A stretch of 46,830 bases of DNA from Thiogranum sp. (GCA_030148915.1 JASBSN010000054.1:1-46830), one strand, 5' to 3'; shown: positions 8,195 through 44,974, counted from the stretch's first letter. A program made the numbers and translations. Notes: generated by a model not told the origin, from the sequence alone.

Positions 8195-8198
8195 TGAC

Positions 8199-8954: not shown

Positions 8955-8957
8955 GCC

Positions 8958-12041: not shown

Positions 12042-12047
12042 AACATC

Positions 12048-18161: not shown

Positions 18162-18166
18162 CGAAA

Positions 18167-29085: not shown

Positions 29086-29161
29086 GCGCCGGCGTTCACG
29101 GCCGGGTCCGATGCGCGCACAGCGTGAAAAGCCATCCCGGGGAACGTGCCACGGTTTATGT

Positions 29162-29175
29162 ATGCAACGTTGCAT
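29162..29175. promoter_or_regulatory. Operator-like palindrome C
   Basis: ATGCAACGTTGCAT is a perfect 14-bp palindrome in the 163-bp gap ahead of the 8-oxoguanine deaminase gene. It shares the TTGCAT half with sites A and D. Confidence 0.6.
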
Positions 29176-29248: not shown

Positions 29249-30607
29249 ATGGCGATCCTGAACAGTAGCCGCGCCGATGCGCTGTGGTTGAAAAATCCGC
29301 TCGCCGTGCTGGCGCCGGACAGCGGTGGTGGGATCGTTATCGCCGGCGATAAGATCATCGAGCAGGTCGCCAGCGGAGCCCGGCCATCGCAGCCCTACGC
29401 GCGCGTCTTCGACGCCAGCGAGCATGTGGTTCTGCCGGGACTGATCAATACCCATCACCATTTTTATCAAACCCTGACGCGGGCTTTTCCGCCGGCGCTG
29501 AATCAGCCCTTGTTTCCCTGGTTGCAGCAGCTCTACCCGGTGTGGGCCGGACTGACGCCGCCGATGTTCGAACTCGCCAACCGCGTGGCGATGGCCGAGC
29601 TGTTGTTGTCCGGCTGTACCTTGGCGGCCGACCATCACTATTTGTATCCGCCGGGCATGGAGGAGGCCGTCGATATACAGGTCGAGGCGGCGCAGGCGCT
29701 CGGCTTGCGTGTGCTGCTGACACGCGGTTCGATGAGCCTGAGTACAGACGACGGCGGATTGCCGCCGCCGCGGGTGGTGCAGGACGAAGAGGTCATACTG
29801 GCCGACTGTGAGCGGGTCATTGGCCGCTATCATCAGGCGGGCGAGGGAGCGCGCGTGCAGATCGCCCTGGCGCCGTGCTCGCCGTTTTCGGTAAGTCGGG
29901 AATTAATGCAGGGCAGCGCTGATCTGGCGCGCCGCCACGGCGTGCGTTTGCACACCCATTTGGCCGAAACCGAGGGCGAGACCGACTACTGCTTACGCGC
30001 GTTCGGGGCACGGCCTTTAGATTACCTGGAATCCGTCGGTTGGTTGCGCGACGATGTCTGGTTGGCGCACGGTATTCATTTTAGTGACGACGAAGTGCGG
30101 CGGCTGGGGCAGGCCGGCGTCGGGGTGGCCCACTGCCCGGGCTCCAACATGCTACTGGCGTCCGGTATCTGCCCGGTGCGGGATCTGGAGCAGGCCGGTG
30201 TCGCGGTGGGGTTGGCGGTGGACGGGTCGGCCTCCAACGATGCCTCCAACCTCATCCAGGAGGCGCGCCTGGCGCTGCTGGTGCAGCGCTTACGTTATGG
30301 CGCCAGCGTCAGTCACCTCGACGCCCTGCGTTGGGCGACGCAGGGCGCAGCGCGCTGTCTGGGGCGCGACGATGTGGGCTCGATTACGGTCGGCCGACAG
30401 GCCGATCTGGCGTTGTTCAGGCTGGACGAATTGCGTTTCAGCGGCCACGGTGACCCATTGGCGGCGTTGTTACTATGCGGTGCGCAGCGCGCCGACCGGG
30501 TCATGGTGGCCGGTGAATGGCGGGTTATCGACGGCGCCATCCCGGACCTGGACTGCGTGGCGTTGCGCCACCGGCACCAGAGCGCGGCGCGGACGCTGCA
30601 AGCATGA
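29249..30607 (+). CDS. 8-oxoguanine deaminase (amidohydrolase superfamily)
   Basis: A 452-residue cytoplasmic zinc amidohydrolase predicted to convert 8-oxoguanine to uric acid and ammonia. Metal and catalytic motifs are present: LPGLINTHHHFYQTLTRAFP (HxH), HTHLAETEGE (His and Glu), AHGIHFSDDE (His) and GVDGSASND (Asp). The TLTRAFPPALNQPLFPWL and ADHHYLYPPG segments are characteristic of 8-oxoguanine deaminase rather than atrazine or guanine deaminases. The ribosome site is weak. Its stop overlaps the next gene's start by four bases. It is probably controlled by the GntR site upstream. Confidence 0.88.
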   Translation: MAILNSSRADALWLKNPLAVLAPDSGGGIVIAGDKIIEQVASGARPSQPYARVFDASEHVVLPGLINTHHHFYQTLTRAFPPALNQPLFPWLQQLYPVWAGLTPPMFELANRVAMAELLLSGCTLAADHHYLYPPGMEEAVDIQVEAAQALGLRVLLTRGSMSLSTDDGGLPPPRVVQDEEVILADCERVIGRYHQAGEGARVQIALAPCSPFSVSRELMQGSADLARRHGVRLHTHLAETEGETDYCLRAFGARPLDYLESVGWLRDDVWLAHGIHFSDDEVRRLGQAGVGVAHCPGSNMLLASGICPVRDLEQAGVAVGLAVDGSASNDASNLIQEARLALLVQRLRYGASVSHLDALRWATQGAARCLGRDDVGSITVGRQADLALFRLDELRFSGHGDPLAALLLCGAQRADRVMVAGEWRVIDGAIPDLDCVALRHRHQSAARTLQA

Positions 30608-31842
30608 ATCAGACGCCGACGCTTTACCGCGCCGCGGTGATTAACCCGCTCAATAACGGCAACTGGCGCTACCTGCCGGATGCCGGTCTGCTCATCGAGC
30701 GCGGCCGGGTGGTCGACCTGCAACCGATCGGGGCCTTTGGCGCGCGCCCTGAACTGCCCTGTGTTGAACTCGACGGTGTGATCTCGCCGGGTTTTGTTGA
30801 TGTGCACACCCACTGGGTGCAATACCGGGTGCGCGGCCGGTTCCAGGCGCAGTTGCTGCCGTGGCTGAAAGAACATATCTGGCCGGAAGAAGCGAGCTTC
30901 GCCGACAGCGCGCTGGCCGGCGCGCTGGCCGAACAGTTTTTTAAAGACAGTATCCGTGCCGGCACGGTGATGGGCATGGCCTACTCGAGTGCGCACGCCG
31001 GCGCCTTGCAGGCCGCCAGCGACGTGACCCTGGGTGACTGGTTGATCGGTGACGTCGTGATGGAAACCGACGCACCCGACGCATTAGTGGCAGCGAGCGC
31101 GAAGGATATCGGCGAGTTGTCGGCGCGCGCCGGCCGTTACGGCCCGCAACGCTACGCGGTGACGCCGCGCTTTGCCTTAAACTGTTCGGCACCCTTTATG
31201 CGCGACATGGGTCAGCTCGCCCGCCAGCAAGGCTATTACGTGCAGACCCACCTGTCGGAATCGGTCGAAGAGATCAACGAAGTGCATCGCCGCTTTGCCG
31301 ATGCGCAAGATTACACCGACGTCTACGATCGCGCCGGCCTGCTGGGTGAACGCAGCGTGCTGGGCCATTGCGTACACCTGTCCCCGCGCGAATGGCGTTG
31401 CCTGGCCGCGCGCGGCAGCTGGGTGGCGCATTGCCCGTCGAGCAACGAGGCGTTGGACAGCGGCCGGATGGACCTGACGGCGCTGCGCGAGCACGGCGTG
31501 AAATACGCCCTGGCCTCGGACGTGGGCGGCGGGCCCAGTCACAGCATGCTACACGTGATGCAACGTTATCTAGATCAACACCGCGCCGCCGGCGCTGCGG
31601 TAGCGGCCGGCGAAGCTCTGTACCGCGCCACTCTGGCTGGCGCGCAGTGCATGGGCCGGGGGGCCTATGCCGGCAACTTCGCGCCCGGTAAACGCGCCGA
31701 CTTTCTATTGTTGCCCAGACTCAATGCCCATCAAAGCGTCGACAGCTGGCTGGAAGAAATCGTACAGGGCGGCATCGACGACCTGGAAACACGCGTGGCG
31801 GCTACCTGGCTAGGCGGTATCCGCCAGAACGGCACGCGTTAA
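30604..31842 (+). CDS. Amidohydrolase, guanine-deaminase-like
   Basis: 412 residues from ATG 30604, which overlaps the 8-oxoguanine deaminase stop (ATGA). Amidohydrolase motifs: GFVDVHTHWVQYRVRG (HxH), YVQTHLSESVEEI, LGHCVHLSPRE and LASDVGGGPSHSMLHVMQ. The DVGGG and S.S..H pattern and HTH-x-Q segment match guanine deaminase (guanine to xanthine plus ammonia). A related aminohydrolase such as one for another 6-aminopurine is possible. The frame could extend upstream into the previous gene, but the coupled start is more likely. Confidence 0.78.
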   Translation: MNQTPTLYRAAVINPLNNGNWRYLPDAGLLIERGRVVDLQPIGAFGARPELPCVELDGVISPGFVDVHTHWVQYRVRGRFQAQLLPWLKEHIWPEEASFADSALAGALAEQFFKDSIRAGTVMGMAYSSAHAGALQAASDVTLGDWLIGDVVMETDAPDALVAASAKDIGELSARAGRYGPQRYAVTPRFALNCSAPFMRDMGQLARQQGYYVQTHLSESVEEINEVHRRFADAQDYTDVYDRAGLLGERSVLGHCVHLSPREWRCLAARGSWVAHCPSSNEALDSGRMDLTALREHGVKYALASDVGGGPSHSMLHVMQRYLDQHRAAGAAVAAGEALYRATLAGAQCMGRGAYAGNFAPGKRADFLLLPRLNAHQSVDSWLEEIVQGGIDDLETRVAATWLGGIRQNGTR

Positions 31843-32010
31843 CGACGCGTACGCCCGGGAACGATTGCCCCGACATCTCGATCACCGTAACCCAAAGTAG
31901 TGCAGGGGCCGCCCCACAGGCCATACATCGGGGCGTGCCAGTCCTTTAGCCTAAGCACTAAGTTCACCTATCTTATTGTTTGGTAAGTAACAGAAGATTT
32001 GGCAAGGTGT

Positions 32011-32045
32011 TTGCATACAATATTGCATGCAAAGTTGTATACAAC
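32011..32045. promoter_or_regulatory. Tandem operator-like palindromes D
   Basis: Two adjacent palindromes just ahead of the adenosine deaminase gene. 32011-32032 is nearly symmetrical (20 of 22) with TTGCATACAA on one arm and TTGCATGCAA on the other. 32034-32045 is the perfect palindrome GTTGTATACAAC. A TTGGCA box near 32000 could be a -35 element. The start codon is at 32056. Confidence 0.65.
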
Positions 32046-32055
32046 AGAACGGATC

Positions 32056-33510
32056 ATGACCTACACCCAGTCCACCTCCCTTCTGACCTATCGGCCGTTG
32101 CTGTTGTGGCTGGTGTTGGGCCTGACCCTGTTCGGGTTCACGGCGCGCGCCGAAGACAACTGGTTCGAGGTGCTCAAGCGCGATGCGACGCCTGAGCAGT
32201 TGTACCGCTTTCTTTACGCGCTACCCAAGGGTGGCGATCTACACAATCACTTAACCGGTTCCGGCCGCCCCGAGTGGTGGTTGGCGCTGGCACTACAGCA
32301 GGCCGAGCGTGGCTACCACTATTACACCAAGGTGCGCATTAATAACTGTGCCGGGTACGGTGGTAATGAATTCGGTGCCGATCCCTATCTACTGTTATTC
32401 AAAAATCTGCAGGAATCGAACTACCTGGCGCTTGACGACTGCCGGCGCGGCGAATACCGGCGCCTGGATAAACTCGACGGCGTACAGAAAACCGCCTGGC
32501 TGAACAGCTTACGCCTGGACAAGCCTTATGAAGGTCGCAACGAATTCTTTACCACCCACTGGCCACGCCTGCGCGACCTGACGGCCAACCCTCACCTGGT
32601 TGCCGAACTGCTGGTGCGTAACATGCAGGCCTTCGGCGCCGAAGGCCTACTGTATCTGGAAACCCAGATCGGGGTGCGCGGCTATCTGAAACCCGACGGC
32701 AGCGCCTATGGCGCCGAACAGGTGTTGAGCATCTTCCGCGAGCGGCTGGCCGCGCGCGACGCGCAACGCACCGGTGTCACAGTCCGTTTCCAGTATGCCT
32801 TACTGCGTTTTACGCCCGACGCCGAACAGACGCTGGCATGGATTTATCCGTTTGTCGCCACGCATAACGATTTATACGTGGGTGTGAACATGGTCGGGCG
32901 CGAGGATAACGACAAAGGTTACCCGTTACGTTTTCTGCCGACACTGCGCGACCTGCGGCGGCGTTTTCCCGGCGTGCACCTGTCGATACACGCCGGTGAA
33001 GTCGACGAACCCAATTACCACGTGCGTGATACCCTCCTGCTGGGCGCCGAGCGCATCGGCCACGGCGTCAATCTGATCACCGACCCGCAAACGCTGGTAG
33101 CGATGCGTTATGGCCCTTATCTGGTCGAGATCAATCTCATCAGCAATTTATTGCTCGAATATATCAGCGATTTTAGCCAACACCCGTTTCCCGAGTATCT
33201 GCGCCTGGGTGTGCCGGTGGCGTTGTCGACGGATGATCGCGGCATGTGGGATTCTAATTTGAGCGATGAATACTACGTCGCCGTCACGCAGTTCAACCTG
33301 TCTTGGGCCGAGTTGGTCCAGTTGGGCAGGAACTCCCTTCAGTACAGCTTTCTGGACGCCGCCGCCAAAGACGCCTTGTTGCGTAGCTATGACCTGCGCG
33401 TACAGCGTTTCAAGGCGGCATTCATTAGTAAAGGTTGGCGCTCATTGCGTGGTGTGAAACCGGTGAGCTACGGCTTCGCTTGTCGATGGGCAACGTTGTG
33501 TACCTGGTAG
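32056..33510 (+). CDS. Exported adenosine deaminase, ADGF/CECR1-like
   Basis: 484 residues. A signal peptide (about 1-32, hydrophobic LLLWLVLGLTLFGFTARA) is followed by an adenosine/AMP deaminase barrel with KGGDLHNHLTGSG (HxH zinc ligands), SIHAGEVDEPNYHV (His/Glu), RIGHGVNL (His) and LSTDDRGMW (Asp-Asp). Export and length match the secreted ADGF group rather than the ~340-residue cytoplasmic Add. It would turn extracellular adenosine or deoxyadenosine into inosine. I chose ATG 32056 because upstream frames run through the palindromes. It is followed by a TonB receptor gene after ~200 bp without a gene. Confidence 0.88.
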   Translation: MTYTQSTSLLTYRPLLLWLVLGLTLFGFTARAEDNWFEVLKRDATPEQLYRFLYALPKGGDLHNHLTGSGRPEWWLALALQQAERGYHYYTKVRINNCAGYGGNEFGADPYLLLFKNLQESNYLALDDCRRGEYRRLDKLDGVQKTAWLNSLRLDKPYEGRNEFFTTHWPRLRDLTANPHLVAELLVRNMQAFGAEGLLYLETQIGVRGYLKPDGSAYGAEQVLSIFRERLAARDAQRTGVTVRFQYALLRFTPDAEQTLAWIYPFVATHNDLYVGVNMVGREDNDKGYPLRFLPTLRDLRRRFPGVHLSIHAGEVDEPNYHVRDTLLLGAERIGHGVNLITDPQTLVAMRYGPYLVEINLISNLLLEYISDFSQHPFPEYLRLGVPVALSTDDRGMWDSNLSDEYYVAVTQFNLSWAELVQLGRNSLQYSFLDAAAKDALLRSYDLRVQRFKAAFISKGWRSLRGVKPVSYGFACRWATLCTW

Positions 33511-33714
33511 CGCCGTCAGCGTGGCGTGCGGGCTCGCGGCGCACGCAGCCGGCGACGGCTAGGGAGTGGGTTTCCAGTGGTAAGGGTTTGATCGGAATAT
33601 CGAGTAGGGACGCTTATGGTCTTCCAGGCATTGTTACGGTGGGGTTCGACACCGGCGTGGCGATACCGGAATGGGTTTGCATGATTGAGTGTTCAGTGTC
33701 GGAGTACAAAAACT

Positions 33715-36111
33715 ATGAGTAGTGTGATGATGAATCGAACTTGGCTCGGGGCGGCTGGCGCCCTGATTTTGGGTGGCGTCCAGGGTAATCTCCTGGCGCA
33801 GGAACCCACTAAAGACGATAAAAAGGACGATGTCGTCGAACTCGAAAAATATGTCGCTGAGGACGAAGTCGAAGATAATCTGAATATGATGCCGACCGAG
33901 CCGGTCAAGTCGGTCTTCGGTTTCGACAAAACCATCCTGGAAACACCGCGCTCGGTGACCTCTATCAGTAGCGAGATGCTGCAGCGTTACGACATCACCG
34001 ACATCGACGATCTGGTGGCGCTGACACCCGGTTCGTTTACCCAATCGTTCTTCGGTGTCGCCGGGTCGTTGGAAGTCCGCGGTACGCCAGGCGAAACCTA
34101 TTTTCGCGGCGTACGCCGTATCGACAACCCGGGTAACTATCCCACACCGATCGGCGCCACCGACCGCATCGACATCGTGCGCGGGCCGGCCTCTCCGATC
34201 TACGGTCCGTCGAAAATCGGTGGCTATTTGAACTTTATCCCCAAATCGGCGCGCGCCGAATCGGGTCAGTACCTGGAAAAACCGGTGGGAGAAATGAGCT
34301 TCACCGGTGGCCAGTACGGAAAACGCATATTGCGCGGCGAGGTCGGTGGGCCGACTACCTGGGTCGGCAAGCAGGTCGGTTATTATCTGTATGCCGAGAT
34401 CGAAAACTCCGACAGCTACTACAACAACACACAAACTGATCAGACTATTCTGCAGTCGTCGTTCAACGTTGAGTTGTCGGATCAGTCGCGCATCGAATTC
34501 GGCGGCATGTACCACGAATACGACGGCAACCAGGTGGCCGGCTGGAACCGCGTCACCCAGGATCTGATCGATAACGGCACCTATATCACCGGCAGCCCGG
34601 CCGGTCTGGACGCCAACGGCGACGGCTCCATCGCGCCCAACGAAGTGCCATCCACCCTGGGCGCGTTTAATCCGCAGACTCAGTCCGATATTGATCCAAT
34701 CAACGCCCTGGTCAATCCTGGTATCGCCAAGCTCGACGGAAACAATGTGCTGGTGGCGCCGGACGACACCTTGCAGGACGACGTACTGACGCTGTATTTC
34801 GATTATTTCTACGACTTGAACAACGGTGCGAAAATAACTAACAAGATGTTTTACGAGTCGTTGGAAAATCTCAACGAAAATGCCTATGGGTTTTCTCAGT
34901 TTGCCGACACCTGGGCGGTCGAAGATCAATTGATTTTCGCGTTCAGCGCCGATCATGCCGACTGGTTTCATGCCGATTACCAGTTGTCGCCGTCGATTCG
35001 CTACACTAGCTTTGAACACGGGGGCGATTTCTTTTTCGAATATTTCGACCGTCGTGATCTTACCGGGCCATCGACGGCAATCGACCGGCGTCTGTTGGCT
35101 ACCCGTTCCGACGGCGTTTTTTACTCCAACCATAATACCGGTAGTTACACTGATTACGGCCTGTCGCTGTTAACGGACATGACGTTCGCCCGTAAACTGC
35201 ATGTCCTGCTGGGTGGGCGTTACGATATACTGGATATGAACAGCCATAACCGTAACGACTCGCTGAATAACACCAATCTCAAGGCCAGCGATACCGTGGA
35301 CGGCTTGTCCTGGACCGCCAGTCTTTCTTACGATTTGCCGTATGGCTTGAAGCCCTATGTTACCGCATCGGAACAGAAGACCGTCATCGCTGGCCAGGGC
35401 GGGGAGCTCGATCCGACCGACATCCGCGACGGCAACGCCTTCGGCGGATCCGATCTGCGAGAAGTCGGCGTCAAGGGCAGTTTCTGGGACGGTCGTTTGT
35501 ATACCAGTCTGGCCTGGTTCAATCAGGAGCGTACCGACCGTAACGCCCAGAACACGGTCACCAACAACACCACCGAATCCGAAGGTATCGAGTTCGAGTT
35601 CCGCCTGCTGGCCACCGATAGACTCACGTTTACCGGTGCCTATACCAATCTTGAAGTGATCAACAAAACGGCGGAAGAGAACGGCTCGCAGTTCAGCTTT
35701 CTAGGTGTCGAGGATCTGCCGAATATCGACCCGACCAGCTTCTTCGGCGGTGCGGTACTGGGCTTCGTCTCCAACGACAACTTTCAACGCGCCGGTATCC
35801 CAGAGAATATTTACAGCCTGTACGCCACCTATGATTTCGGCGGTCCGTTGGAAGGCTTCAACGGTATGTTGGGTGCAACCCGCGTCAGCTCGGTGTATTC
35901 GGGTTTTTCCAATAGCGTAAAGTTACCGGCCTATACCCTGGTCAATGCTGGTCTGGGCTATAAGGGAAAGCACTGGTCGGCGAGCGCTCGCGTCAAGAAC
36001 GTGCTCAACGAGAAATATTTTCGATCGAACTTCCCCGACCTTTTCGGCAGTGTAATTGTGCTTCCGGAGTTACCACGGACTTATGAGTTCACCCTGGCGT
36101 ACAAGTTCTAA
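33715..36111 (+). CDS. TonB-dependent outer-membrane receptor
   Basis: 798 residues. Signal peptide to about residue 28 (AAGALILGGVQGNLLAQ), an acidic linker with a likely TonB box (DDVVELEKYVAED), then the plug domain (about 55-170, FGFDKTILETPRSVTSIS and DRIDIVRGPASPIYGPSKIG) and a 22-strand-type barrel ending in an aromatic residue (EFTLAYKF), the usual BAM signal. It sits between an exported adenosine deaminase and a complete TonB-energising operon, so the likely cargo is a purine, nucleoside or related compound; not siderophore by context. ATG 33715 is chosen over a TTG at 33685; a GGAG lies ~11 bases before it. Confidence 0.93.
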   Translation: MSSVMMNRTWLGAAGALILGGVQGNLLAQEPTKDDKKDDVVELEKYVAEDEVEDNLNMMPTEPVKSVFGFDKTILETPRSVTSISSEMLQRYDITDIDDLVALTPGSFTQSFFGVAGSLEVRGTPGETYFRGVRRIDNPGNYPTPIGATDRIDIVRGPASPIYGPSKIGGYLNFIPKSARAESGQYLEKPVGEMSFTGGQYGKRILRGEVGGPTTWVGKQVGYYLYAEIENSDSYYNNTQTDQTILQSSFNVELSDQSRIEFGGMYHEYDGNQVAGWNRVTQDLIDNGTYITGSPAGLDANGDGSIAPNEVPSTLGAFNPQTQSDIDPINALVNPGIAKLDGNNVLVAPDDTLQDDVLTLYFDYFYDLNNGAKITNKMFYESLENLNENAYGFSQFADTWAVEDQLIFAFSADHADWFHADYQLSPSIRYTSFEHGGDFFFEYFDRRDLTGPSTAIDRRLLATRSDGVFYSNHNTGSYTDYGLSLLTDMTFARKLHVLLGGRYDILDMNSHNRNDSLNNTNLKASDTVDGLSWTASLSYDLPYGLKPYVTASEQKTVIAGQGGELDPTDIRDGNAFGGSDLREVGVKGSFWDGRLYTSLAWFNQERTDRNAQNTVTNNTTESEGIEFEFRLLATDRLTFTGAYTNLEVINKTAEENGSQFSFLGVEDLPNIDPTSFFGGAVLGFVSNDNFQRAGIPENIYSLYATYDFGGPLEGFNGMLGATRVSSVYSGFSNSVKLPAYTLVNAGLGYKGKHWSASARVKNVLNEKYFRSNFPDLFGSVIVLPELPRTYEFTLAYKF

Positions 36112-36146
36112 ATAGGTGGTCGGTGCGGCTGTTAAAGAGGCAAGTT

Positions 36147-36908
36147 ATGATGAAAACCCCTTTGTGTTTGGCGATGACGCTGGCTCTGATCGGTGCGCAG
36201 CTACAGGCGGGCGAGCTGGATAAGCCGCTCGCCACTCAGCTGCGCAGCGATCGGAGTGCTGCCACCAGCCAGAAAAAAATCGACAAGATGGCCGATCAGA
36301 CGGCCGATGCCCTGCAGACCTACCGGGCGGCGTTGCAGCGTGCCGAAAGCCTGAAGGTCTATAACGACCAACTGACACGTCTGATTGACTCGCAGCAGCA
36401 GGAAATGACGTCGATTCAACAGCAGGTCGACGACATCGACGCCATTGAAACCGGTGTATTGCCGCTGATGGTACGTATGACCGGCACGCTAAGCGAGTTA
36501 CTGGCACGGGATGCGCCGTTTCTGGTTGGTGAACGCACCAAGCGGGTCGCCGAACTTAAAACCCTTATCGACCGTGCCGATATCAGCATCGGCGAAAAAT
36601 TCCGCCGCATTATGGAGGCGTACATGATCGAGGCCGACTACGGTCGGACCATTGAAGCCTACCGCGACGAACTGGCCCAGGACGGCACGGTACTGATGGT
36701 CGATTTTCTGCGCATCGGGCGCGTGGGGCTCTACTATCAGACGCTGGACGGTACGCAAACCGGCCGCTGGAATCCCGGCGCGCGGCGCTGGGAAGTGGTG
36801 AGCGACGATTACCGACGCGCCGTGCTCGACGGTTTGCGGGTCGCGCGTAAACAGGCGCCGCCCAAGATGCTGGTATTGCCTATCGACGCGCCGGAGGGGC
36901 AGTCATGA
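36147..36908 (+). CDS. DUF3450 periplasmic protein of the TonB2-type system
   Basis: 253 residues with a signal peptide (about 1-22, LCLAMTLALIGAQLQAG), a long coiled coil (about 30-110, SQQQEMTSIQQQVDDIDAIE) and a globular C-terminal part (GRVGLYYQTLDGTQTGRWNP). DUF3450 proteins are the usual first gene of TtpC-ExbB2-ExbD2-TonB2 operons. It probably supports assembly or signalling of the energising complex in the periplasm. ATG 36147 has AAAGAGG upstream. The next gene overlaps by four bases. Confidence 0.88.
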   Translation: MMKTPLCLAMTLALIGAQLQAGELDKPLATQLRSDRSAATSQKKIDKMADQTADALQTYRAALQRAESLKVYNDQLTRLIDSQQQEMTSIQQQVDDIDAIETGVLPLMVRMTGTLSELLARDAPFLVGERTKRVAELKTLIDRADISIGEKFRRIMEAYMIEADYGRTIEAYRDELAQDGTVLMVDFLRIGRVGLYYQTLDGTQTGRWNPGARRWEVVSDDYRRAVLDGLRVARKQAPPKMLVLPIDAPEGQS

Positions 36909-38287
36909 TAAGGCACATCAAACTCGTATCGCTGGTGCACGCCGTGGTATTGGCTTGGAGCCTGTTACCGGCTCTCGGCTTTGCGGCCAACGACCTACAA
37001 AGCCTGATTAAAGAAGTCCAGTCGGCGGCCAGCAGCGAGGCGTTACACGATAAAGCACGCGAAACCCGTTTTAAGCAGTCGTTGGATGAGCGCACCCGGC
37101 TGATGGCGCAGGCCAAGGGCGAGGTCGACCGCTTGCTGGCGGCGCGCGACGCGCTCAAAACCGACTTCGATGCAAACGAAGCGGCTCTAGGCGATTTACA
37201 AGAGCAACTGGCGCGCCGCAGCGGCGACCTGGGCGAGTTGTTCGGCGTATTCCGACAAACTGCCGGCGATTCGCAGTCGATGATGTACGACTCGCTGGTA
37301 TCGCTGGACCGCCCCGAACGGCAAGACACCATCGACGCTCTGGCGAGCCGTAAAGAGGTGCCGAGCATTGCGCAGATGCAAAGTCTCTGGCAACTGCTGC
37401 TCGAGGAAATCGTCTTGTCCGGTGAGACCAGCAAGCTTAGCTCATCGGTTATCAAACCCAATGGACAGTCCTACCAGGCCGACGTCGTTCGCGTTGGCAC
37501 CTTTAACGCCATCAGCGGTGATAATTACCTGCGCTACCTGCCGGAGAACCACCAACTGGTCGAATTCGCCCGCCAGCCGGCGGGCTATATCCGCGCCGGC
37601 GCCGCCCGCCTCAGCGAGGCGCCGCCCGGCAAAACTACCGCGTTTGCCCTGGACCCGTCGCGCGGTGTCCTGCTCGGCTTGCTGGTGCAGTCGCCCAGCC
37701 TCCTGGAGCGTATCGAGCAGGGCAAGCTGGTCGGCTACGCGATTCTGTTGGTTGCCGCGATCGGCTTGCTGATTGTTGCCCAACGTCTGCTGGAGCTGTC
37801 ACGCCTGGGGCGGCGGATTAAAAAGCAATTGACCGACATGGAGCATGTCAACGACGACAACCCTCTGGGCCGGGTGCTGGCTGCCTATTACCAGAATCGT
37901 CAGTACAGTGTCGAGGTCATCGCGCGCAAACTCGAAGAGGCAATCTTCAAAGAGGTCGCCAATATCCGCAAAGGACTGCCGCTGATCAAGGTGTTGGCGG
38001 CGATTGCCCCGCTGATGGGCCTGCTGGGTACGGTAACCGGCATGATCGGCACCTTCCAGGCGATTACCCTGTTCGGCACCGGCGACCCCAAGCTGATGGC
38101 CGGTGGCATCTCGCAGGCGTTGGTGACCACGGTGTTGGGCCTGGTCGCGGCGATTCCGCTGTTGTTATCGCACAGCTTGTTGACCAGCCGCGCCACGCAA
38201 CTGGCCAAGGTGCTAGGTGAACAGGCCGCCGGCATGGTTGCCACGCAGGCGGAAATCATTGAACGCCAACAGCAGGCCGCCGCGTGA
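36905..38287 (+). CDS. TtpC-like MotA/TolQ/ExbB-family protein with periplasmic domain
   Basis: 460 residues. Signal sequence (about 1-28), coiled-coil periplasmic part (about 30-110), a beta-rich region, a membrane helix (about 277-298, AILLVAAIGLLIVAQRLLEL) and a MotA/TolQ/ExbB domain (about 350-445, APLMGLLGTVTGMIGTFQAI and LVTTVLGLVAAIPLLLSHSL). This layout is that of TtpC, the extra component required by Vibrio TonB2 systems. It starts at an ATGA overlap with the DUF3450 gene and ends in a GTGA overlap with exbB. Confidence 0.88.
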   Translation: MIRHIKLVSLVHAVVLAWSLLPALGFAANDLQSLIKEVQSAASSEALHDKARETRFKQSLDERTRLMAQAKGEVDRLLAARDALKTDFDANEAALGDLQEQLARRSGDLGELFGVFRQTAGDSQSMMYDSLVSLDRPERQDTIDALASRKEVPSIAQMQSLWQLLLEEIVLSGETSKLSSSVIKPNGQSYQADVVRVGTFNAISGDNYLRYLPENHQLVEFARQPAGYIRAGAARLSEAPPGKTTAFALDPSRGVLLGLLVQSPSLLERIEQGKLVGYAILLVAAIGLLIVAQRLLELSRLGRRIKKQLTDMEHVNDDNPLGRVLAAYYQNRQYSVEVIARKLEEAIFKEVANIRKGLPLIKVLAAIAPLMGLLGTVTGMIGTFQAITLFGTGDPKLMAGGISQALVTTVLGLVAAIPLLLSHSLLTSRATQLAKVLGEQAAGMVATQAEIIERQQQAAA

Positions 38288-38805
38288 ACGATCTGCTGAT
38301 GTTATGGCGCGATTTTTTTGCCACCGGCGGCCAGGTGTTGTGGGCCATCTTTGCCGTCACTGTCGGTGTCTGGTGGTTGATACTGGATCGCTTCTGGTAC
38401 TTGCGACGCGAGCACCCGCAGGCCTTATCCACCACCTTGCGGCAGTGGTCGCAGCGCGCCGATAAGCGTTCCTGGTACGGCGAGAGCCTGCGCCGTCAAT
38501 GGATTTCCCAATTGGAGTGCGCCATGTTGCGCAACCAGAAGCTGGTACCCAGTCTGATTGCGCTGTTACCCATGCTGGGTTTACTGGGTACGGTCACGGG
38601 CATGATCCAGGTGTTCGACGTGCTGGCCGTGACCGGATCCAGCAACCCGCGCGCTATGGCCGACGGCGTCAGCGCCGCCACGGTGCCGACCATGGCGGGC
38701 ATGGTCGCGGCGCTCAGCGCGCTGCCGTTTAGCGCCCGCCTGGAACGACGCTACCAGCGCGAGCTGCACCGTATCGCCGAAAAAATGCCTTCCGAGACGG
38801 AGTGA
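38284..38805 (+). CDS. exbB: ExbB-type proton-channel subunit
   Basis: A 173-residue MotA/TolQ/ExbB protein with three membrane helices; the signature LLPMLGLLGTVTGMIQVFD and PTMAGMVAALSALPFS lie in helices 2 and 3. Shorter than E. coli ExbB (244), as is usual for ExbB2. Together with ExbD it converts proton flow into TonB movement in the inner membrane. It starts at GTG overlapping the previous stop. Confidence 0.92.
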   Translation: MNDLLMLWRDFFATGGQVLWAIFAVTVGVWWLILDRFWYLRREHPQALSTTLRQWSQRADKRSWYGESLRRQWISQLECAMLRNQKLVPSLIALLPMLGLLGTVTGMIQVFDVLAVTGSSNPRAMADGVSAATVPTMAGMVAALSALPFSARLERRYQRELHRIAEKMPSETE

Positions 38806-38809
38806 ACTC

Positions 38810-39217
38810 ATGGCCTTCGATAACTACTCTGAACAGGACGACGAAACCCAGGTCGATATGACGCCCATGCTTGACGTGGTGTTCATTATGCTGATCTTTT
38901 TCATCGTCACCTCATCGTTCGTGCGCGAGACGGGTGTTGACGTCAGCCGCCCCAGCGCCGAAACAGCGGTCTCTACGGACGCCGGTAGTGTGCAGATCGG
39001 CATTACCGCCAACGACGAAATCTGGATCGACAAGCGACGCATCGACCCGCGCGCGGTGCGCGCCAACGTCGAAAAGGCCATGGCGGAAAACGCCGGTACG
39101 GCGGTCGTCATTGTTGCCGACGCAGGCTCCAACACCAGTGTATTGATCAAGGTCATGGACCAGGCGCGCCTGGCCGGCGCGAAAAACATCTCGGTCGCGG
39201 CGAAAAACGATCGTTGA
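38810..39217 (+). CDS. exbD: ExbD-type proton-channel subunit
   Basis: 135 residues with one membrane helix (about 20-42) bearing the essential Asp, D22 in VDMTPMLDVVFIMLIFFIVT, and a periplasmic domain (about 55-135). It starts 4 bp after exbB, with a GGAG in the exbB end as ribosome site. It forms the proton path with ExbB. Confidence 0.93.
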   Translation: MAFDNYSEQDDETQVDMTPMLDVVFIMLIFFIVTSSFVRETGVDVSRPSAETAVSTDAGSVQIGITANDEIWIDKRRIDPRAVRANVEKAMAENAGTAVVIVADAGSNTSVLIKVMDQARLAGAKNISVAAKNDR

Positions 39218-39219
39218 TC

Positions 39220-39861
39220 ATGACACGGCAAATCCCTCTGGGCGTCAGTGCGCTATTGATCGGCCTGTTCCTGTTCATGATCATGCAATTGATGATCAAA
39301 CCCGACAGCGCGCTGTTCAAGGCGGACAGTCAAAGCGCCTACCTTAACTTTGTGCGGGTTAAGCCCAATGAACGGCTAGTAGAAACCAAAGACCGGCGTC
39401 TGCCCGAGGAACCGCCGCCGGAGCCGCCACCGAAGACGCCGGATTTAAACATCGCACAGGACAAAATGCCGAACAACACCCCGCAAATGGCTATGAACCT
39501 GCCGTCACTGGACATACCCTTCAGCGCCGGCGAAGGGCCCTACATCGGCACACCCGGCGCGCTGGCCGTCGGCGCGGCGGCCTTCGACACCGACGTCATC
39601 CCGCTGGTGCAGGTGGCGCCGAGCTATCCGCGGCGGGCCAAGCAGGCGCGCGTTGAGGGTTATGTCAAATTGGCGGTCACCATCCGCCCCGACGGCAGCG
39701 TCGCCGACGCACGCGTCATCGACGCCGATCCCAAACGGCTGTTCGACCGGGCCGCCTTGCAGGCGATGCGCCGCTGGAAGTTTCGACCAAAGGTGGTCGA
39801 TGGCCGGCCGGTTGCGCAAAAGGCCGAACAGCTTATCGAATTTAAATTGGGGGGGCATTGA
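39220..39861 (+). CDS. tonB: TonB-family energy transducer
   Basis: 213 residues. A membrane anchor (about 7-27, VSALLIGLFLFMIMQLMI), a short Pro-rich segment (PEEPPPEPPPKTP, about 62-75) and the C-terminal TonB domain (about 130-213, YPRRAKQARVEGYVKLAVTI and ALQAMRRWKFRP). The short proline part is typical of TonB2. ATG 39220 lies 2 bp after exbD; a TTG six bases earlier is an alternative. It should couple to the receptor at 33.7-36.1 kb. Confidence 0.93.
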   Translation: MTRQIPLGVSALLIGLFLFMIMQLMIKPDSALFKADSQSAYLNFVRVKPNERLVETKDRRLPEEPPPEPPPKTPDLNIAQDKMPNNTPQMAMNLPSLDIPFSAGEGPYIGTPGALAVGAAAFDTDVIPLVQVAPSYPRRAKQARVEGYVKLAVTIRPDGSVADARVIDADPKRLFDRAALQAMRRWKFRPKVVDGRPVAQKAEQLIEFKLGGH

Positions 39862-39862
39862 C

Positions 39863-41107
39863 ATGCTGCGGGTGCGCGAGGGTTTGCTGAGCCTGGGCCT
39901 GACGCTGCTGCTCGGTTTTACCGCGGCCGGCCCGCTGGCCGCCGCCGAGAAGGCCACCATCGCACCGTCGACGTACAAGAAACTGACAAAAATTCAGGAG
40001 CAGATGGCTAACGGCCAGTGGCAGGTCGCCATCGACGCATTAAAACTCCTGCACGACAAGGTCAGCGACACCAGTGTCGACCAGGCCATCGTTTTACAGA
40101 CCTGGGGCTTTGCCGAAGTCAGCGCCAACCACTATAAACGTGCCGTTGCGTTGTTCGAACGTAGCCTGGCAACCACCCATTTGCCCGACGCGGCGGCGCT
40201 CAGTGTACGCTTTATGCTGGCGCAGCTGTACGCCGCCCAGGGTAACTACGCCAAGGCATTGAGCGTAGCGGAGGTCTGGATCAAGTCGGTGCCTGCGCCC
40301 AGCCCGACGCAGCATATCTTCATGGCCAACCTGTTGGCGCGGAACAAGCGCTTCGCGGCGGCGATTTCCCACGCCGAGGCGGCGATACGGACTGCCGAGG
40401 CACCGAAAGCGGTCTGGTACCAGTTGCTGCTGGCGGCGCATTTCGAGTTACGCCATTACCCGCAGGCGGCGCAGGTGCTACAGGCCATGATCGCGCATTG
40501 GCCGGACGATGCGCGTTATTGGGAACAACTCGCCAGCGTGTATATGTTGCGCAAGCAGGCGTCGCACGCGCTTGCGACCTTGCAGATCGCCTGGCGACGT
40601 GGCTTGCTGGACAAAGACGCCACACTGAAATCACTGGTGCAACTGGCGGTCAGCCGCGGCGTGCCGGAGCGCGCTGCGCGCCTGCTCGACCAGGCCTTAG
40701 AAAAACAGTTACTTCCGCCCGACCAAGCGTTTCTGAAAATGCTCGCCGATGCCTGGAGCCTGGCGCGCGAAAATCAGCAGGCGATCGACGCGCTGGCGCG
40801 CCTGGCCGCGGTCAGTAGTGACGGCGAACCCTGGTTGCGGCAGGCGCGTATTCATTTGGAACTGGGCGACTGGCCGGCGGCGCGCGGCGCGCTCGACAAA
40901 GCGCTAGAACGCGGCGTGAAAGTGCCGGGTAAAGCCTGGTTGCTGCTCGGCATCGCCGAGGTCGAAAGCCAGGATTTTTCCGCCGCCGACACCGCGCTAC
41001 GCAAGGCGCAAGCCTTTCCCGACCAGGCCAAACAGGCTTCGGCCTGGCTGGATTACGCCGCCGACCGGCGCCGCCAGGTAAAGCGGCTGGCACAAAACAA
41101 TCCCTAA
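39863..41107 (+). CDS. TPR protein of the TonB2 operon
   Basis: 414 residues with a signal peptide (about 1-29, LLSLGLTLLLGFTAAGPLAA) and consecutive tetratricopeptide-like helical pairs over the rest (AVALFERSLATTHLPDAAAL, YPQAAQVLQAMIAHWPDDAR, AARGALDKALERGV). Such a periplasmic TPR gene usually closes TtpC-ExbB2-ExbD2-TonB2 operons. ATG 39863 comes one base after the tonB stop with a G-rich run ahead. The exact role is unknown; scaffolding of the periplasmic complex is likely. Confidence 0.88.
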   Translation: MLRVREGLLSLGLTLLLGFTAAGPLAAAEKATIAPSTYKKLTKIQEQMANGQWQVAIDALKLLHDKVSDTSVDQAIVLQTWGFAEVSANHYKRAVALFERSLATTHLPDAAALSVRFMLAQLYAAQGNYAKALSVAEVWIKSVPAPSPTQHIFMANLLARNKRFAAAISHAEAAIRTAEAPKAVWYQLLLAAHFELRHYPQAAQVLQAMIAHWPDDARYWEQLASVYMLRKQASHALATLQIAWRRGLLDKDATLKSLVQLAVSRGVPERAARLLDQALEKQLLPPDQAFLKMLADAWSLARENQQAIDALARLAAVSSDGEPWLRQARIHLELGDWPAARGALDKALERGVKVPGKAWLLLGIAEVESQDFSAADTALRKAQAFPDQAKQASAWLDYAADRRRQVKRLAQNNP

Positions 41108-41123
41108 TATGATGGAGTCAGGT

Positions 41124-42215
41124 ATGCACTCTCGTTTCAATGCACTGCTGCTCGGACTGGCAATGACCGTGGGTTTGTCCGCCTGCAACACGACCCCGCC
41201 GACGCCCGTGTCGCAGGCCGCGCCGGTGCCCATTCCTATTAGGGTGGTGGTGGTATCGATGTTCGAAGTCGGCGCCGACAGCGGCGACGTGGCCGGCGAG
41301 TTTCAGCTATGGCGCGAGCGGCAAAAGCTCGACACGCGGCTGCCGTTCACCCACAGTTTTCACGATCTGTACCTTAACCCGGTTACCGGAGTGCTGGGTA
41401 TGGTGACCGGCATCGGCACGGCCAAGTCGGCCTCGGCGATTATGGCGCTGGGTCTTGATCCGCGTTTTGATTTATCCAAAGCCTACTGGTTGGTCGCCGG
41501 TATCGCCGGTATTGATCCTAACGACGCGTCGGTTGGTTCCGCGGCGTGGGCAGAGTATCTGGTCGACGCCGATCTGGCCCACGAGATCGACGCCCGCGAA
41601 ATACCGGCCGACTGGCCGACCGGTTACTTCGCCCGCTATACCAAAAAACCCTACGACCCGAACAAACCTGCGCCGACCGGCGAGATGTTCCGGCTTAACC
41701 CGGCGCTGACCGAGTGGGCCTACCAATTGACTAAAGACATCGACCTGGGCGATACGGCTACCTTACAACGCGTGCGGGCACCCTATACCGGCTACCCCAA
41801 CGCGCAGAAACCGCCCTTCGTCCTCAAAGGCGACAACCTGGCGGGCATGACCTACTGGCACGGCAAGCTGCTCAACGACTGGGCTAACGGTTGGGTCGAT
41901 TACTGGAGCGAGGGGCAGGGCGAATTCGTCACCTCGGCCATGGAAGACACCGGCACCTTGCAGTCGCTGACTTATCTCGACAAGAGCGGCAAGGTCGACA
42001 AGAACCGCGTCATGGTGCTACGCAGTGGCAGCAACTACACCATGCAACCGCCCGGCGTGACCGCGGTGGACGACCTGCTGCGCGACCATGACGGTTACGA
42101 CAGCCTGCGCCCGGCCGTGGAAGCCGCCTATGTGGTCGGAGCCCGGGTGGTCGATGACATCGTCGCGCACTGGGACACCTACCGGACGACGCTGCCGGCG
42201 GCGAGCGCGGAGTAG
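41124..42215 (+). CDS. Lipoprotein of the purine nucleoside permease (NUP) family
   Basis: 363 residues. A lipobox LSAC (C21) follows a hydrophobic signal, and Asn at +2 favours outer-membrane location. The body matches the NUP family (VVVVSMFEVGADSGDVAGEF, VTGVLGMVTGIGTAKSASAI, YWLVAGIAGIDPNDASVGSA, AMEDTGTLQSL). Despite the name, the fold is that of nucleoside phosphorylases/hydrolases, so cleavage of nucleosides outside the inner membrane is plausible. ATG 41124 has GGAG 7 bases ahead and gives a proper signal peptide. It follows the TPR gene closely, tying it to the TonB system. Confidence 0.87.
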   Translation: MHSRFNALLLGLAMTVGLSACNTTPPTPVSQAAPVPIPIRVVVVSMFEVGADSGDVAGEFQLWRERQKLDTRLPFTHSFHDLYLNPVTGVLGMVTGIGTAKSASAIMALGLDPRFDLSKAYWLVAGIAGIDPNDASVGSAAWAEYLVDADLAHEIDAREIPADWPTGYFARYTKKPYDPNKPAPTGEMFRLNPALTEWAYQLTKDIDLGDTATLQRVRAPYTGYPNAQKPPFVLKGDNLAGMTYWHGKLLNDWANGWVDYWSEGQGEFVTSAMEDTGTLQSLTYLDKSGKVDKNRVMVLRSGSNYTMQPPGVTAVDDLLRDHDGYDSLRPAVEAAYVVGARVVDDIVAHWDTYRTTLPAASAE

Positions 42216-42227
42216 GCGAGGGCCGCC

Positions 42228-42926
42228 ATGCCGGATTTAACCCTCGACGCCCAGCCTTACCCCTATCGCTTCGACCCGGCGCACAGCGCGTTGCTGGTGA
42301 TCGATATGCAGCGCGACTTTATCGAAAGCGGCGGGTTTGGTGAGTCCTTGGGCAACGACGTCAGCCGCCTGGCGGCCATTGTGCCGACCGTGCGGCGCGT
42401 ATTGGACGCCGCGCGCGCCGCCGGGCTGTGTGTCATCCACACCCGCGAGGCTCACCGGCCGGACCTGTCCGACTGCCCGCCGGCGAAACGCGTCCGCGGT
42501 GATGCCGCCTTGCGCATCGGCGACTCAGGCCCGATGGGGCGTATTCTGGTCGCCGGCGAAGCCGGTAATCAAATTGTGCCCGCGTGCGCACCGCTGGTCG
42601 ACGAAACGGTGATCGACAAACCCGGCAAGGGCGCGTTTTACAACACTCCCCTTATGGCACTGCTTGCGGCGCGCCGCATCAGTCACCTGCTGGTCGTCGG
42701 TGTGACCACCGAAGTGTGTGTGCAGAGCACGCTGCGCGAAGCCAACGACCGGGGTTTCGAGTGTCTGCTGATCGAGGACGCGACCGAAAGTTACTTCCCC
42801 GCCTTCAAACAAGCCACGCTTGACATGATACGCGCGCAAGGCGCCATCGTCGGCTGGACCGCACACGCCGAGCCCGTCATCGCTGCGCTGGCCGCCGACG
42901 TGCAACCGAAGCCAGACCATGCCTAA
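42228..42926 (+). CDS. Cysteine hydrolase, isochorismatase family (biuret-hydrolase-like)
   Basis: 232 residues with the catalytic triad D26 ([10 protein letters not shown]), K131 ([13 protein letters not shown]) and C164 ([11 protein letters not shown]). The family hydrolyses amides such as biuret, ureidoacrylate or N-carbamoyl compounds. The long [20 protein letters not shown] insertion and genomic linkage to AtzG/AtzE/AtzH genes resemble biuret hydrolase (BiuH/TrtA). It overlaps atzG by 8 bp. The actual substrate may be a purine- or oxalurate-derived amide. Confidence 0.82.
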
Positions 42927-43107
42927 GCCCGATTTCGACCCCGAATGCTGGCTGGATACACTATCGGCGCTGATGGACGTGGACATTGCTGCCGGCGACC
43001 GTGCCGGCGTGGTCGTCAACCTGGCGGTCGCTGCACAGATGGCTGAACTGTTGATGGCGTTCGAACTGCCCGACGACCTGGAGGCGGCGCCGCACTTCGC
43101 ACCATGA
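42919..43107 (+). CDS. atzG: AtzG/HpxX-like small subunit (DUF4089)
   Basis: A 62-residue helical protein ([40 protein letters not shown], ending LEAAPHFAP). Such proteins form an asymmetric complex with AtzE amidase, like GatC with GatA, and stabilise it. It overlaps both neighbours (8 bp upstream, 4 bp downstream), implying coupled, stoichiometric synthesis. Confidence 0.85.
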
Positions 43108-44501
43108 CGATACTCGCCCAACCAGCCCACGTCATCGCCGAGGCGGTGCACGATGGTACGCTCAGCGCCGTCGATGTGGTCGCCGCGACACAGGCGGCTA
43201 TCGAACGCAACGACCCCGCAATCAATGCCTTCAGTGAAGTGACTTATGAACGCGCCTTGAGCGAAGCGCTTCGAGTCGACGCCGCGCGCCGTGCCCGCGA
43301 GCCGCTCGGTCCCCTGGCGGGCGTGCCGTATGCGGTCAAAAACCTATTCGACATCGAGGGGCTGACGACGCTAGCCGGCTCGCGTATCAACGCCGGGCAC
43401 CCGCCCGCAGCCGGCGACGCGACCGTCATCAAACGCCTCAAGGGTGCCGGTGCCCTGTTGTTCGGCGCCTTGAACATGGGCGAGTACGCGTACGATTTTA
43501 CCGGCGAAAACGCCCATTACGGCGCTACCCGTAACCCGCACAATAAAGCGCATATGAGCGGTGGCTCCAGCGGCGGCTCGGCCGCTGCAGTGGCCGCCGG
43601 TCTGGTGCCGTTGGCCCTCGGTTCGGATACCAACGGCTCTATCCGCGTGCCCTCGGCGCTGACCGGTATCTTCGGTCTGAAGCCGACCTTCGGCCGTCTG
43701 AGTCGGGCCGGCTGCTTCCCCTTTTGTGCCAGCCTCGACCACGTCGGCCCGTTTGCCGGGACGGTCCGCGATCTGGCTTTGACAATGGACGTCCTGCAAG
43801 GCCCGGACAGTGCCGACCCGGTGTGCGCGACGCGTATTCCGCAAGCGGTGTCGGCACATTTAGCCCGCGGTGCCGAGGGTGTCACACTGGCCATCGCGGA
43901 CGATTACTTTCAACGCGGCCTGCATCCAGACGCTGCCGCCGCCGTGCAGCGCGTGGCAGCGGCGCTTGACGTTGAGCGCAGCGTACACCTGCCGCAAGTC
44001 GCCCGCGCCCGCGCCGCGGCATTCCTGATGACCAATATCGAAGCCGGCAACTTGCACCTGGCGCGCTTGAAGACGCGCGCGGCGGACTTCGACCCGGACG
44101 TCCGTGAGCGTCTGCTGGCCGGGGCCTTGGCGCCGGCCAGCTGGTACGTGCAGGCACAACGCTTCCGGCGCTGGTACCAGGCGGCGGTGCGGGCCGTATT
44201 TGACGACGTGGATGTCATCATCGCCCCGGCGACGCCGTGCAGCGCGCCGCGCATCGGCCAGAAAACCATGACCCTGGACGGCGAAACATTACCGGTCCGA
44301 CCCAACCTGGGCCTATTCACTCAGCCGATTTCATTTATCGGTCTGCCGGTGGTCACCGTGCCGGTCAACAGCCCCGGCCAACTGCCGGTGGGCGTACAGC
44401 TGATCGCACCGGCCTGGCGCGACGATTTGTGCCTGCGCGTGGCTGCGACCCTGGAGACATTGGGCTTTACCGCATCCCTAGCCACGAAGGAGGGTAAGTG
44501 A
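43104..44501 (+). CDS. atzE: AtzE-family amidohydrolase (HpxY-like)
   Basis: A 465-residue amidase-signature enzyme with Ser-cisSer-Lys triad K79 (PYAVKNLFDIEG), S155 (MSGGSSGGSAAAVA) and S179 (GSDTNGSIRVPS). AtzE hydrolyses 1-carboxybiuret in cyanuric-acid breakdown; close relatives (HpxY) serve oxalurate/urate catabolism in Klebsiella. Context with AtzG and AtzH-type genes is the same in both pathways, so the substrate cannot be fixed from this gene alone. The gene is complete and overlaps both neighbours. Confidence 0.9.
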   Translation: MTILAQPAHVIAEAVHDGTLSAVDVVAATQAAIERNDPAINAFSEVTYERALSEALRVDAARRAREPLGPLAGVPYAVKNLFDIEGLTTLAGSRINAGHPPAAGDATVIKRLKGAGALLFGALNMGEYAYDFTGENAHYGATRNPHNKAHMSGGSSGGSAAAVAAGLVPLALGSDTNGSIRVPSALTGIFGLKPTFGRLSRAGCFPFCASLDHVGPFAGTVRDLALTMDVLQGPDSADPVCATRIPQAVSAHLARGAEGVTLAIADDYFQRGLHPDAAAAVQRVAAALDVERSVHLPQVARARAAAFLMTNIEAGNLHLARLKTRAADFDPDVRERLLAGALAPASWYVQAQRFRRWYQAAVRAVFDDVDVIIAPATPCSAPRIGQKTMTLDGETLPVRPNLGLFTQPISFIGLPVVTVPVNSPGQLPVGVQLIAPAWRDDLCLRVAATLETLGFTASLATKEGK

Positions 44502-44884
44502 GCTTAGCTATCAATTTGCCGGAAATTATCGCCGAAGTCGAAGCGGTCTTCGCCCGCTACGGCGAAGCCCTGATCGGTAACAATGTTGAGGTACTCGACG
44601 AATTATTCTGGAGCAGCGAGTGGGCCGTTCGCTACGGCGCGGCTGAAAATCTGTACGGCTTTGCCGCCATCGCCGCGTTTCGCAGCCAGCGCGATACGCT
44701 TGGTCTGGCACGCTGCCTGATCCGCAACGTCGTCACCACCTTCGGCAGCGACTTTGCGACGGTCAATACCGAATTCCGCCTGGAAGGCAGCGGCCGCATC
44801 GGGCGGCAGAGCCAGACCTGGTTACGTACAGAGGTCGGCTGGCGGGTAGTGGCGGCGCATATCAGTTTTATCGGGCCGGAGTAA
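44498..44884 (+). CDS. atzH: AtzH/HpxZ-like protein (DUF3225, NTF2 fold)
   Basis: 128 residues of the SnoaL/NTF2-like fold (EVEAVFARYGEALIGNNVEV, LDELFWSS, RYGAAENLYGFAAIAAFRSQ, GRIGRQSQTWLRTEVGWRVV). AtzH is a 1,3-dicarboxyurea deamidase; the Klebsiella counterpart HpxZ is required for oxalurate use. GTG 44498 overlaps the atzE stop (GTGA). It is the last gene of the long plus-strand series; 90 bp separate it from the convergent MobA-like gene. Confidence 0.85.
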   Translation: MSLAINLPEIIAEVEAVFARYGEALIGNNVEVLDELFWSSEWAVRYGAAENLYGFAAIAAFRSQRDTLGLARCLIRNVVTTFGSDFATVNTEFRLEGSGRIGRQSQTWLRTEVGWRVVAAHISFIGPE

Positions 44885-44974
44885 GCGGGGACGGCTTCCG
44901 CTCGTCCAGACCACCCCGTGAATGCCGGCATGCATAGGTTCTCAGGCGGCTCGGATAGGTTGTCCGCGGTGTTG

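Follow-up and report, generated by a model that had tools for sequence, protein, structure and literature searches.

A likely TonB-dependent uptake and periplasmic processing module for purine nucleosides, with a linked energiser set, in Thiogranum sp.

The window analysed here is the entire contig JASBSN010000054.1 of Thiogranum sp. (GCA_030148915.1; 46,830 bases), and its positions 32056-42215 carry, all on the + strand and in this order, genes for an ADA-like deaminase, an outer-membrane receptor, TtpB, TtpC, ExbB, ExbD, TonB, a tetratricopeptide-repeat (TPR) protein or TtpD, and a PF06516 lipoprotein. We regard it as likely that this block serves to take up purine nucleosides with the help of TonB and to process them in the periplasm, and that it has its own energiser. 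The initial annotation of this DNA had listed the same genes in the same order and single direction, and gene calling and Pfam recovered all of them:

32056-33510, + strand: exported ADA-like enzyme, ADGF/ADA2-like and not of the E. coli Add type (PF00962 A_deaminase, 5.9e-33)
33715-36111, + strand: TonB-dependent receptor (TonB_dep_Rec PF00593, 1.3e-21; Plug PF07715, 2.3e-13)
33805-33846 (approximate), + strand: TonB-box-like motif DDVVELEKYVAED near the mature N-terminus, present only in receptors with a linked TonB set
36147-36908, + strand: TtpB (DUF3450), exported (PF11932, 7.4e-87)
36905-38287, + strand: TtpC, large MotA/TolQ/ExbB-family protein (PF01618 MotA_ExbB, 8.1e-30)
38284-38805, + strand: ExbB (PF01618 MotA_ExbB, 1.8e-22)
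38810-39217, + strand: ExbD (PF02472, 5.4e-27)
39214-39861, + strand: TonB (PF03544 TonB_C, 3.4e-24)
39863-41107, + strand: TtpD, exported TPR protein (TPR families), last in the set, as in Vibrio
41109-42215, + strand: PF06516 lipoprotein with a nucleoside phosphorylase/nucleosidase fold, "purine nucleoside permease" by name (PF06516, 1.1e-116)

From the receptor to the PF06516 (NUP) gene (33715-42215) every junction is an overlap or a gap of no more than 35 nt: TtpB/TtpC, TtpC/ExbB and ExbD/TonB overlap by 4 nt, and the gaps measure 35 nt between receptor and DUF3450 genes, 4 nt between ExbB and ExbD, and 1 nt on either side of the TPR gene. The tight packing described earlier for most of the block holds for this part, but not for the deaminase gene, which stands 204 nt before the receptor gene (33511-33714) and 213 nt after a deaminase pair upstream. 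Since it is spaced from both sides, an internal promoter and two transcripts are possible; a sigma-70 scan of 31800-45000 returned no promoter-like site, a result that says little.

In the mechanism that we propose, purine nucleosides would bind the outer-membrane receptor and be drawn into the periplasm, the uptake being powered by the linked TonB, which, held by ExbB, ExbD and TtpC and aided by TtpB and TtpD, would engage the receptor via the atypical box V[ED]LxxY. The exported deaminase would convert adenosine to inosine, the exported PF06516 lipoprotein would split the nucleoside into base and sugar, and a purine permease encoded outside the contig would carry the base to the cytoplasm; there, guanine and 8-oxoguanine deaminases, xanthine dehydrogenase and later enzymes would free its nitrogen. 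A GntR/FCD regulator encoded alongside would control the whole cluster. In this scheme we infer the ligand, the direction of transport, the order of the steps, the pairing of regulator and operator and the TonB that serves the receptor.

The receptor, its purine context and its regulation

Relatives were chosen by receptor sequence alone (orthologues 51-62% identical, plus one found likewise on a Sphingobium plasmid), and at 21 of their loci each flank extended over at least about 7 kb. Purine/urate catabolic clusters surround the receptor at 20 of these 21 loci, and orthologue loci occur in Cellvibrionaceae, Oceanospirillaceae, Colwelliaceae and Alteromonadaceae as well as on the alphaproteobacterial plasmid. 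The neighbours are NUP (19 loci), the exported ADA (17; distant, at 29%, in the Sphingobium locus), the allantoinase PuuE and HpxW (14 each), a PucG-like aminotransferase (11), an AllC-like hydrolase (10), NCS2-family genes (9) and AzgA-like genes (7), and uricase, HIUase and UraD also recur in these clusters. Allantoicase, urate oxidase, the xanthine dehydrogenase subunits, NCS2, PNP-type and nucleoside hydrolase markers were confirmed with Pfam; the genes that we take to be PucG, AllC, PuuE, UraD and HIUase are named from sequence motifs and from the surrounding cluster. PF06516 is itself uncommon: of 369 genomes sampled from the class, 5 have it. At the Colwellia locus L019, the genes next to the block also include an inosine-uridine nucleoside hydrolase and a 5'-nucleotidase. 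Culturable relatives that carry the full block are Marinimicrobium agarilyticum DSM 16975 and Colwellia echini A3. The TonB-driven purine uptake that the initial annotation had proposed is supported by this comparative evidence, together with the local operator-like motif and the lack of a Fur box described below.

The receptor combines the plug and the C-terminal β-barrel of TonB-dependent transporters (PF07715, PF00593), its gene has in-frame ATGs at 33715, 33727 and 33730, and its structural model, weak in detail (mean pLDDT 57), contains long strands that match transporters of this kind (Foldseek E 1.1e-23). The host genome encodes five other receptors above the barrel cut-off. Among the structural neighbours of the model is PqqU/YncD (PDB 9c4o, 6v81), the receptor for PQQ, which is comparable in taking a small heterocyclic ligand without iron; its likeness to the receptor is seen at the level of structure, and it comes without a purine cluster or a private TonB set. 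A second, distant receptor lineage (about 33%; L062:11093-13756, L070:7970-10639, L071:8299-10818), from Alteromonadaceae and relatives, adjoins 8-oxoguanine-deaminase-like and/or NCS2-family genes, and is perhaps a receptor for another purine.

On the regulatory side, copies of an operator-like motif of the GntR type precede the genes of the purine cluster:

32011-32044, no strand assigned: overlapping operator-like sites of the GntR type, TTGCATACAATATTGCATGCAAAGTTGTATACAA, directly ahead of the deaminase gene (4 pattern matches)
27997-28011, + strand: operator-like copy at the start of the HpxW/GGT-like gene (pattern match)
28218-28232, + strand: operator-like copy upstream of the GntR regulator gene (pattern match)
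29161-29175, + strand: operator-like copy upstream of the 8-oxoguanine deaminase/guanine deaminase pair (pattern match)

The pattern YRTRCAANNWTGYAT has 8 matches in the 3.2-Mb genome, 7 of them in the purine cluster, including the 4 at 32011-32044. Three intergenic regions hold 6 matches, against a mean of 0.0023 in shuffled sequence, with none of 20000 shuffles reaching 6; as the pattern was derived from these very sites, its concentration within the genome is the fairer measure. The GntR/FCD protein would be the one that owns and binds these sites. A Fur box, which the initial annotation had named, along with induction of the receptor by iron limitation, as a sign that would speak against purine uptake, was looked for upstream of the deaminase, the receptor and ttpB, and the best match in this sequence test was no better than shuffles.

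These results bear on the possibility that the receptor is an ordinary siderophore or haem receptor, placed with its TonB2 system in a purine cluster by chance. It matches the family of TonB-dependent siderophore receptors, its structural neighbours include Fiu, FhuA and FoxA, and the TonB2 sets of Vibrio carry siderophores (PMC6957404). However, its score against TIGR01783 is 133.3 bits, well below the cut-off of 223.5, no Fur box was seen, the motif upstream is common to purine genes, and the purine context is kept across several families and two classes. This reading is very improbable in our estimate, and an iron or siderophore role was rejected as the best reading on account of the sub-cut-off score, the missing Fur box, the operator-like motif and the purine context.

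The exported enzymes and the probable ligand

By inspection, the deaminase begins with a signal peptide, and the catalytic and zinc-binding residues of ADA (H63, H65, H312, E315, H336, D393 and D394) are invariant among nine homologues. It scores below the cut-off for the housekeeping adenosine deaminase (TIGR01430; 113.6 bits, cut-off 216.6) and below that of TIGR01431, and its relatives in the PDB are 9nte and 3lgd, the nearest solved ones being a snail AMP deaminase and an ADGF construct, so that AMP may serve as a substrate. The PF06516 protein shows a nearly invariant lipobox cysteine (Cys26) and invariant E279, S308 and N309 in the homologue alignment. Its model (mean pLDDT 55) has the fold of MTA/SAH nucleosidases (Foldseek E 1.8e-5) and matches MTAN and uridine phosphorylase, as in the NP-I family; the best match in the VIA comparison was the periplasmic MTA/SAH nucleosidase 5b7q (Z 12.1, rmsd 5.0, 173 residues). 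On visual comparison, AMEDTG (with an invariant MED) and the invariant RxxSN are similar to the MEMEAT and RxxSD segments of E. coli MTAN, with Asn replacing Asp, and a profile comparison with that protein gave no reliable alignment of the active-site residues. Such a change of the base-binding Asp to Asn would be suited to 6-oxopurines, as it is in trimeric PNP. The "purine nucleoside permease" NUP of Candida belongs to the same Pfam family, but here the protein is an exported lipoprotein with an MTA-nucleosidase-like fold, and, going by its model, a periplasmic enzyme is a more plausible reading than a permease. The earlier proposal of processing outside the inner membrane fits the signal peptide of the deaminase and the lipobox of its partner.

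Because an exported deaminase is conserved together with a partner of nucleosidase fold, the likeliest ligand is a purine nucleoside. The initial annotation had named purines, nucleosides or oligonucleotides; the two exported enzymes favour the second of these, and nothing requires the third. Tsx, NupC and NCS2 act on the same class of nutrients; to our knowledge, Tsx is a passive channel, NupC and NCS2 are inner-membrane carriers, and none of them depends on TonB. No description of TonB-dependent purine or nucleoside uptake was found in the open literature, subscription journals lying mostly outside the search.

Several observations weigh against the uptake of purine nucleosides. Free nucleosides are small enough for porins, a search of the contig for an inner-membrane purine permease yielded none, and the closest named or solved relatives of the receptor are the siderophore receptors already mentioned. 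Both the receptor and the 8-oxoguanine deaminase are absent from all 16 congeners searched. Among the relatives, two of about 51% identity with short or partial flanks (L016 and L021) show no purine neighbours, and a second full-length receptor copy in genome G488 (L066:8940-11333) has no purine gene nearby, the other copy of that genome (L067) lying in a purine cluster. An orthologue in G348 is found without ADA and NUP and next to an NCS2-family gene, a context that would also allow a base or urate as the ligand.

This last context leads to the view that the receptor imports purine bases, or urate and xanthine, with the deaminase and the PF06516 lipoprotein serving a separate pool that arrives through porins. 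The surroundings of the receptor at L032 (NCS2-family, AzgA-like and ureide genes, with neither ADA nor NUP) would agree with it, as would the NCS2-family genes that adjoin the receptor at several other loci and the recurrence of uricase, HIUase and UraD. Nevertheless, ADA and NUP, both exported and from families acting on nucleosides, are the most constant neighbours, and neither a permease nor a uricase lies within reach in the window; we judge bases, urate or xanthine to be an unlikely ligand. A larger ligand that is trimmed in the periplasm, be it a nucleotide, an oligonucleotide, a nucleotide cofactor or a natural product carrying a nucleoside, would be in line with the general preference of TonB receptors for molecules too large or too scarce for porins, with the AMP deaminase among the relatives of the exported enzyme and with the 5'-nucleotidase that follows the block in Colwellia. 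The block in the window encodes no nuclease, though, and a 5'-nucleotidase homologue occurs at only 1 of the 21 loci, and we judge this ligand class to be quite improbable.

The energiser set and the TonB-box-like motif

The six genes after the receptor follow the order TtpB-TtpC-ExbB-ExbD-TonB-TtpD that marks TonB2/TonB3-type systems, the same as in Vibrio and at loci L073-L078, and TtpB is the sole DUF3450 match above cut-off in the genome. The set resembles the TonB2 set of Vibrio (TtpB2-TtpC2-ExbB2-ExbD2-TonB2-TtpD2) in its six genes, their order and their domain families, with DUF3450 first and TPR last; the DUF3450- and TPR-bearing TtpB2 and TtpD2 are essential there, and a need for all six proteins in transport has been demonstrated for V. 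vulnificus TonB2 only (PMC6957404). Unlike the set described here, with no Fur box and an operator-like motif common to purine genes, Vibrio TonB2 is regulated by Fur and iron and serves siderophores (PMC6957404). The "TonB2-type" label given earlier is right for the six genes, but the position of the receptor gene, immediately ahead of the six, corresponds to the layout of Vibrio TonB3 (PMC6957404). In V. vulnificus, TonB3 comprises a receptor and six genes, is not regulated by iron and has no known substrate, and it has also been reported from Teredinibacter (PMC6957404); the position of the receptor gene and the lack of any sign of iron regulation are thus shared with the block in the window. 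TonB3 was compared by its published layout. Receptors encoded in front of similar sets in V. campbellii and Photobacterium share no more than 19-25% identity with the receptor described here, over short stretches, and have different, canonical-looking boxes, so that no substrate can be transferred from them to the receptor in the window. Vibrio TonB3-like operons as carriers of this same receptor were dropped, the receptors before the V. campbellii and Photobacterium sets not being orthologous.

In all six components, the proteins are closer to those of purine-linked loci (38-69% identity) than to those of six other TonB2-type sets (24-59%), with no overlap between the two ranges within any component: TtpC 54-58% versus 39-43%, TonB 47-52% versus 32-37%, and TPR protein 38-49% versus 24-31%. 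The outgroup sets, from Alteromonas, Pseudoalteromonas, Vibrio, Photobacterium, Salinivibrio and Aeromonas, were all taken from a plasmid collection. In the TtpC tree the purine-linked proteins group together with a support of 90/92, short of the strongest grade, and with its TtpC at 39-43% to the other sets compared, the set stands apart from Vibrio TonB2 as a separate subgroup. Judged by sequence, the six energiser proteins appear to form a subgroup that has been co-inherited with the receptor.

A further link between set and receptor comes from the segment in which a TonB box is expected. Set-linked receptors have there [ED][ED]xV[ED]L[EG][TK][YF] (DDVVELEKY in the window), and V[ED]LxxY or a close variant is present in 10 of 10 receptors with a set nearby. 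Receptors without a set show VEKIEV(K/T/R)G, EEIVVTG and similar, mostly canonical-looking segments (ETLVIGD in Cellvibrio), and canonical-looking boxes are also found in the five other receptors of the host genome and in three receptors before other TonB2-type sets. In the alignment, V[ED]LxxY occupies the position of the canonical boxes of relatives, and from this position we take it to be a putative TonB box. For a distant receptor with VELDTY (G721), a set was found about 7 kb away, as predicted, so a set can separate from the receptor while the latter retains the motif; at that locus (contig C2, L086:8495-13487), a distant amidohydrolase match lies between the two. A second receptor in G446, with the variant VAQLDDY, is 13 kb from a set. 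In the receptor tree, motif and set each change three times and always jointly, which suggests a cognate receptor-TonB pair. The small number of changes is a further point on the other side of the balance: three independent changes give a sign test p of 0.25, and as three pairs cannot yield a lower value, the association is a lead and not proof.

The receptor might, on the other hand, import purines with the linked set not dedicated to it and any TonB of the cell energising it, a reading that concerns only the coupling and agrees with purine nucleosides as the ligand. The linked set is missing at 14 of the 21 orthologue loci, and the host genome holds five further TonB_C matches; yet the receptors without a set carry other, mostly canonical-looking boxes, which the set-linked ones do not, and the six set proteins form a subgroup of their own. 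We consider a non-dedicated TonB rather doubtful. As for the "private" TonB system of the initial annotation, it is supported, in the sense of co-inheritance, by the subgroup and by the motif association, but the genome also holds other TonB proteins. Carrying the idea of a dedicated pair further, it is possible, although we propose it with reserve, that an insulated purine-nucleoside line exists in which a distinct box is read by the linked TonB, orthogonally to the TonB systems for iron, lineages without the set having boxes of the canonical type.

Flanking genes, origin of the cluster and significance

The genes on both flanks extend the purine theme, up to the contig end on the XdhC side, where the reading stops:

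26422-28089, - strand: HpxW-like gamma-glutamyltranspeptidase (GGT)-like protein of the oxamate amidohydrolase type (PF01019, 7.4e-118)
28396-29085, + strand: GntR/FCD transcriptional regulator (Pfam FCD, 1.8e-23; GntR, 1.6e-19)
29249-30607, + strand: 8-oxoguanine deaminase (NF006055, 667.9 bits, above the cut-off of 532)
30604-31842, + strand: guanine deaminase-like amidohydrolase (TIGR02967, 1.7e-89, under the curated cut-off)
42228-44884, + strand: isochorismatase/biuret-hydrolase-like, AtzG-like, AtzE and AtzH-like genes
44975-46485, - strand: MobA-like nucleotidyltransferase and XdhC (xanthine dehydrogenase maturation)

The purine enzymes that the initial annotation had placed around the block are indeed there, with the 8-oxoguanine deaminase above its cut-off and, beside it, the guanine deaminase-like, HpxW/GGT-like, AtzG/AtzE/AtzH and XdhC genes. 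The HpxW/GGT-like gene probably starts near 28000, and the start of the AtzG-like gene (about 42922-43104) is approximate. The isochorismatase/biuret-hydrolase-like gene follows the PF06516 gene after 12 nt, and the genes at 42228-44884 extend the block; in their sequences they resemble late purine/ureide catabolism genes, HpxXYZ of Klebsiella in particular, with the HpxW-like gene on the opposite side.

The absence of the cluster from the 16 congeners means either that it is young in this lineage or that the contig is misplaced. The purine half matches the other contigs in GC content (0.617 versus 0.614) and in its tetranucleotide profile (r 0.87), which makes a lateral gain likely, and more so than misbinning; the IS21 element of the window is present only once in the genome and so gives no link between this contig and the others. 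The left half differs in its 48% GC and its mobile and Rhs-like genes. At 6668-13037, an IS21-type istA/istB pair is followed in the same direction by a 1027-residue DnaG-like primase (CHC2, Toprim) and a tyrosine integrase, which together look like a mobile element. At 13572-20098, two long genes match models of TPR-GreAB-C-PIN systems (HTH_upstream_double_PIN, PIN-TPR-GreABC, permuted GreAB-C and a DUF676 hydrolase head), possibly a conflict or defence system, and two Rhs-type C-terminal fragments with differing tips lie at 94-678 and 20357-20893.

The substrates of most TonB receptors are unknown and "siderophore receptor" is their default annotation, and the family described here offers a conserved, testable case for a purine substrate. 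The arrangement recurs in many marine bacteria, and for marine and soil bacteria dissolved nucleosides are a contested source of nitrogen. It also provides a natural experiment on the specificity of TonB receptors, as close relatives with and without a linked TonB differ in the region of the TonB box, and it suggests that TonB3-like operons, for which a substrate is still to be found, may have a role in nutrient uptake.

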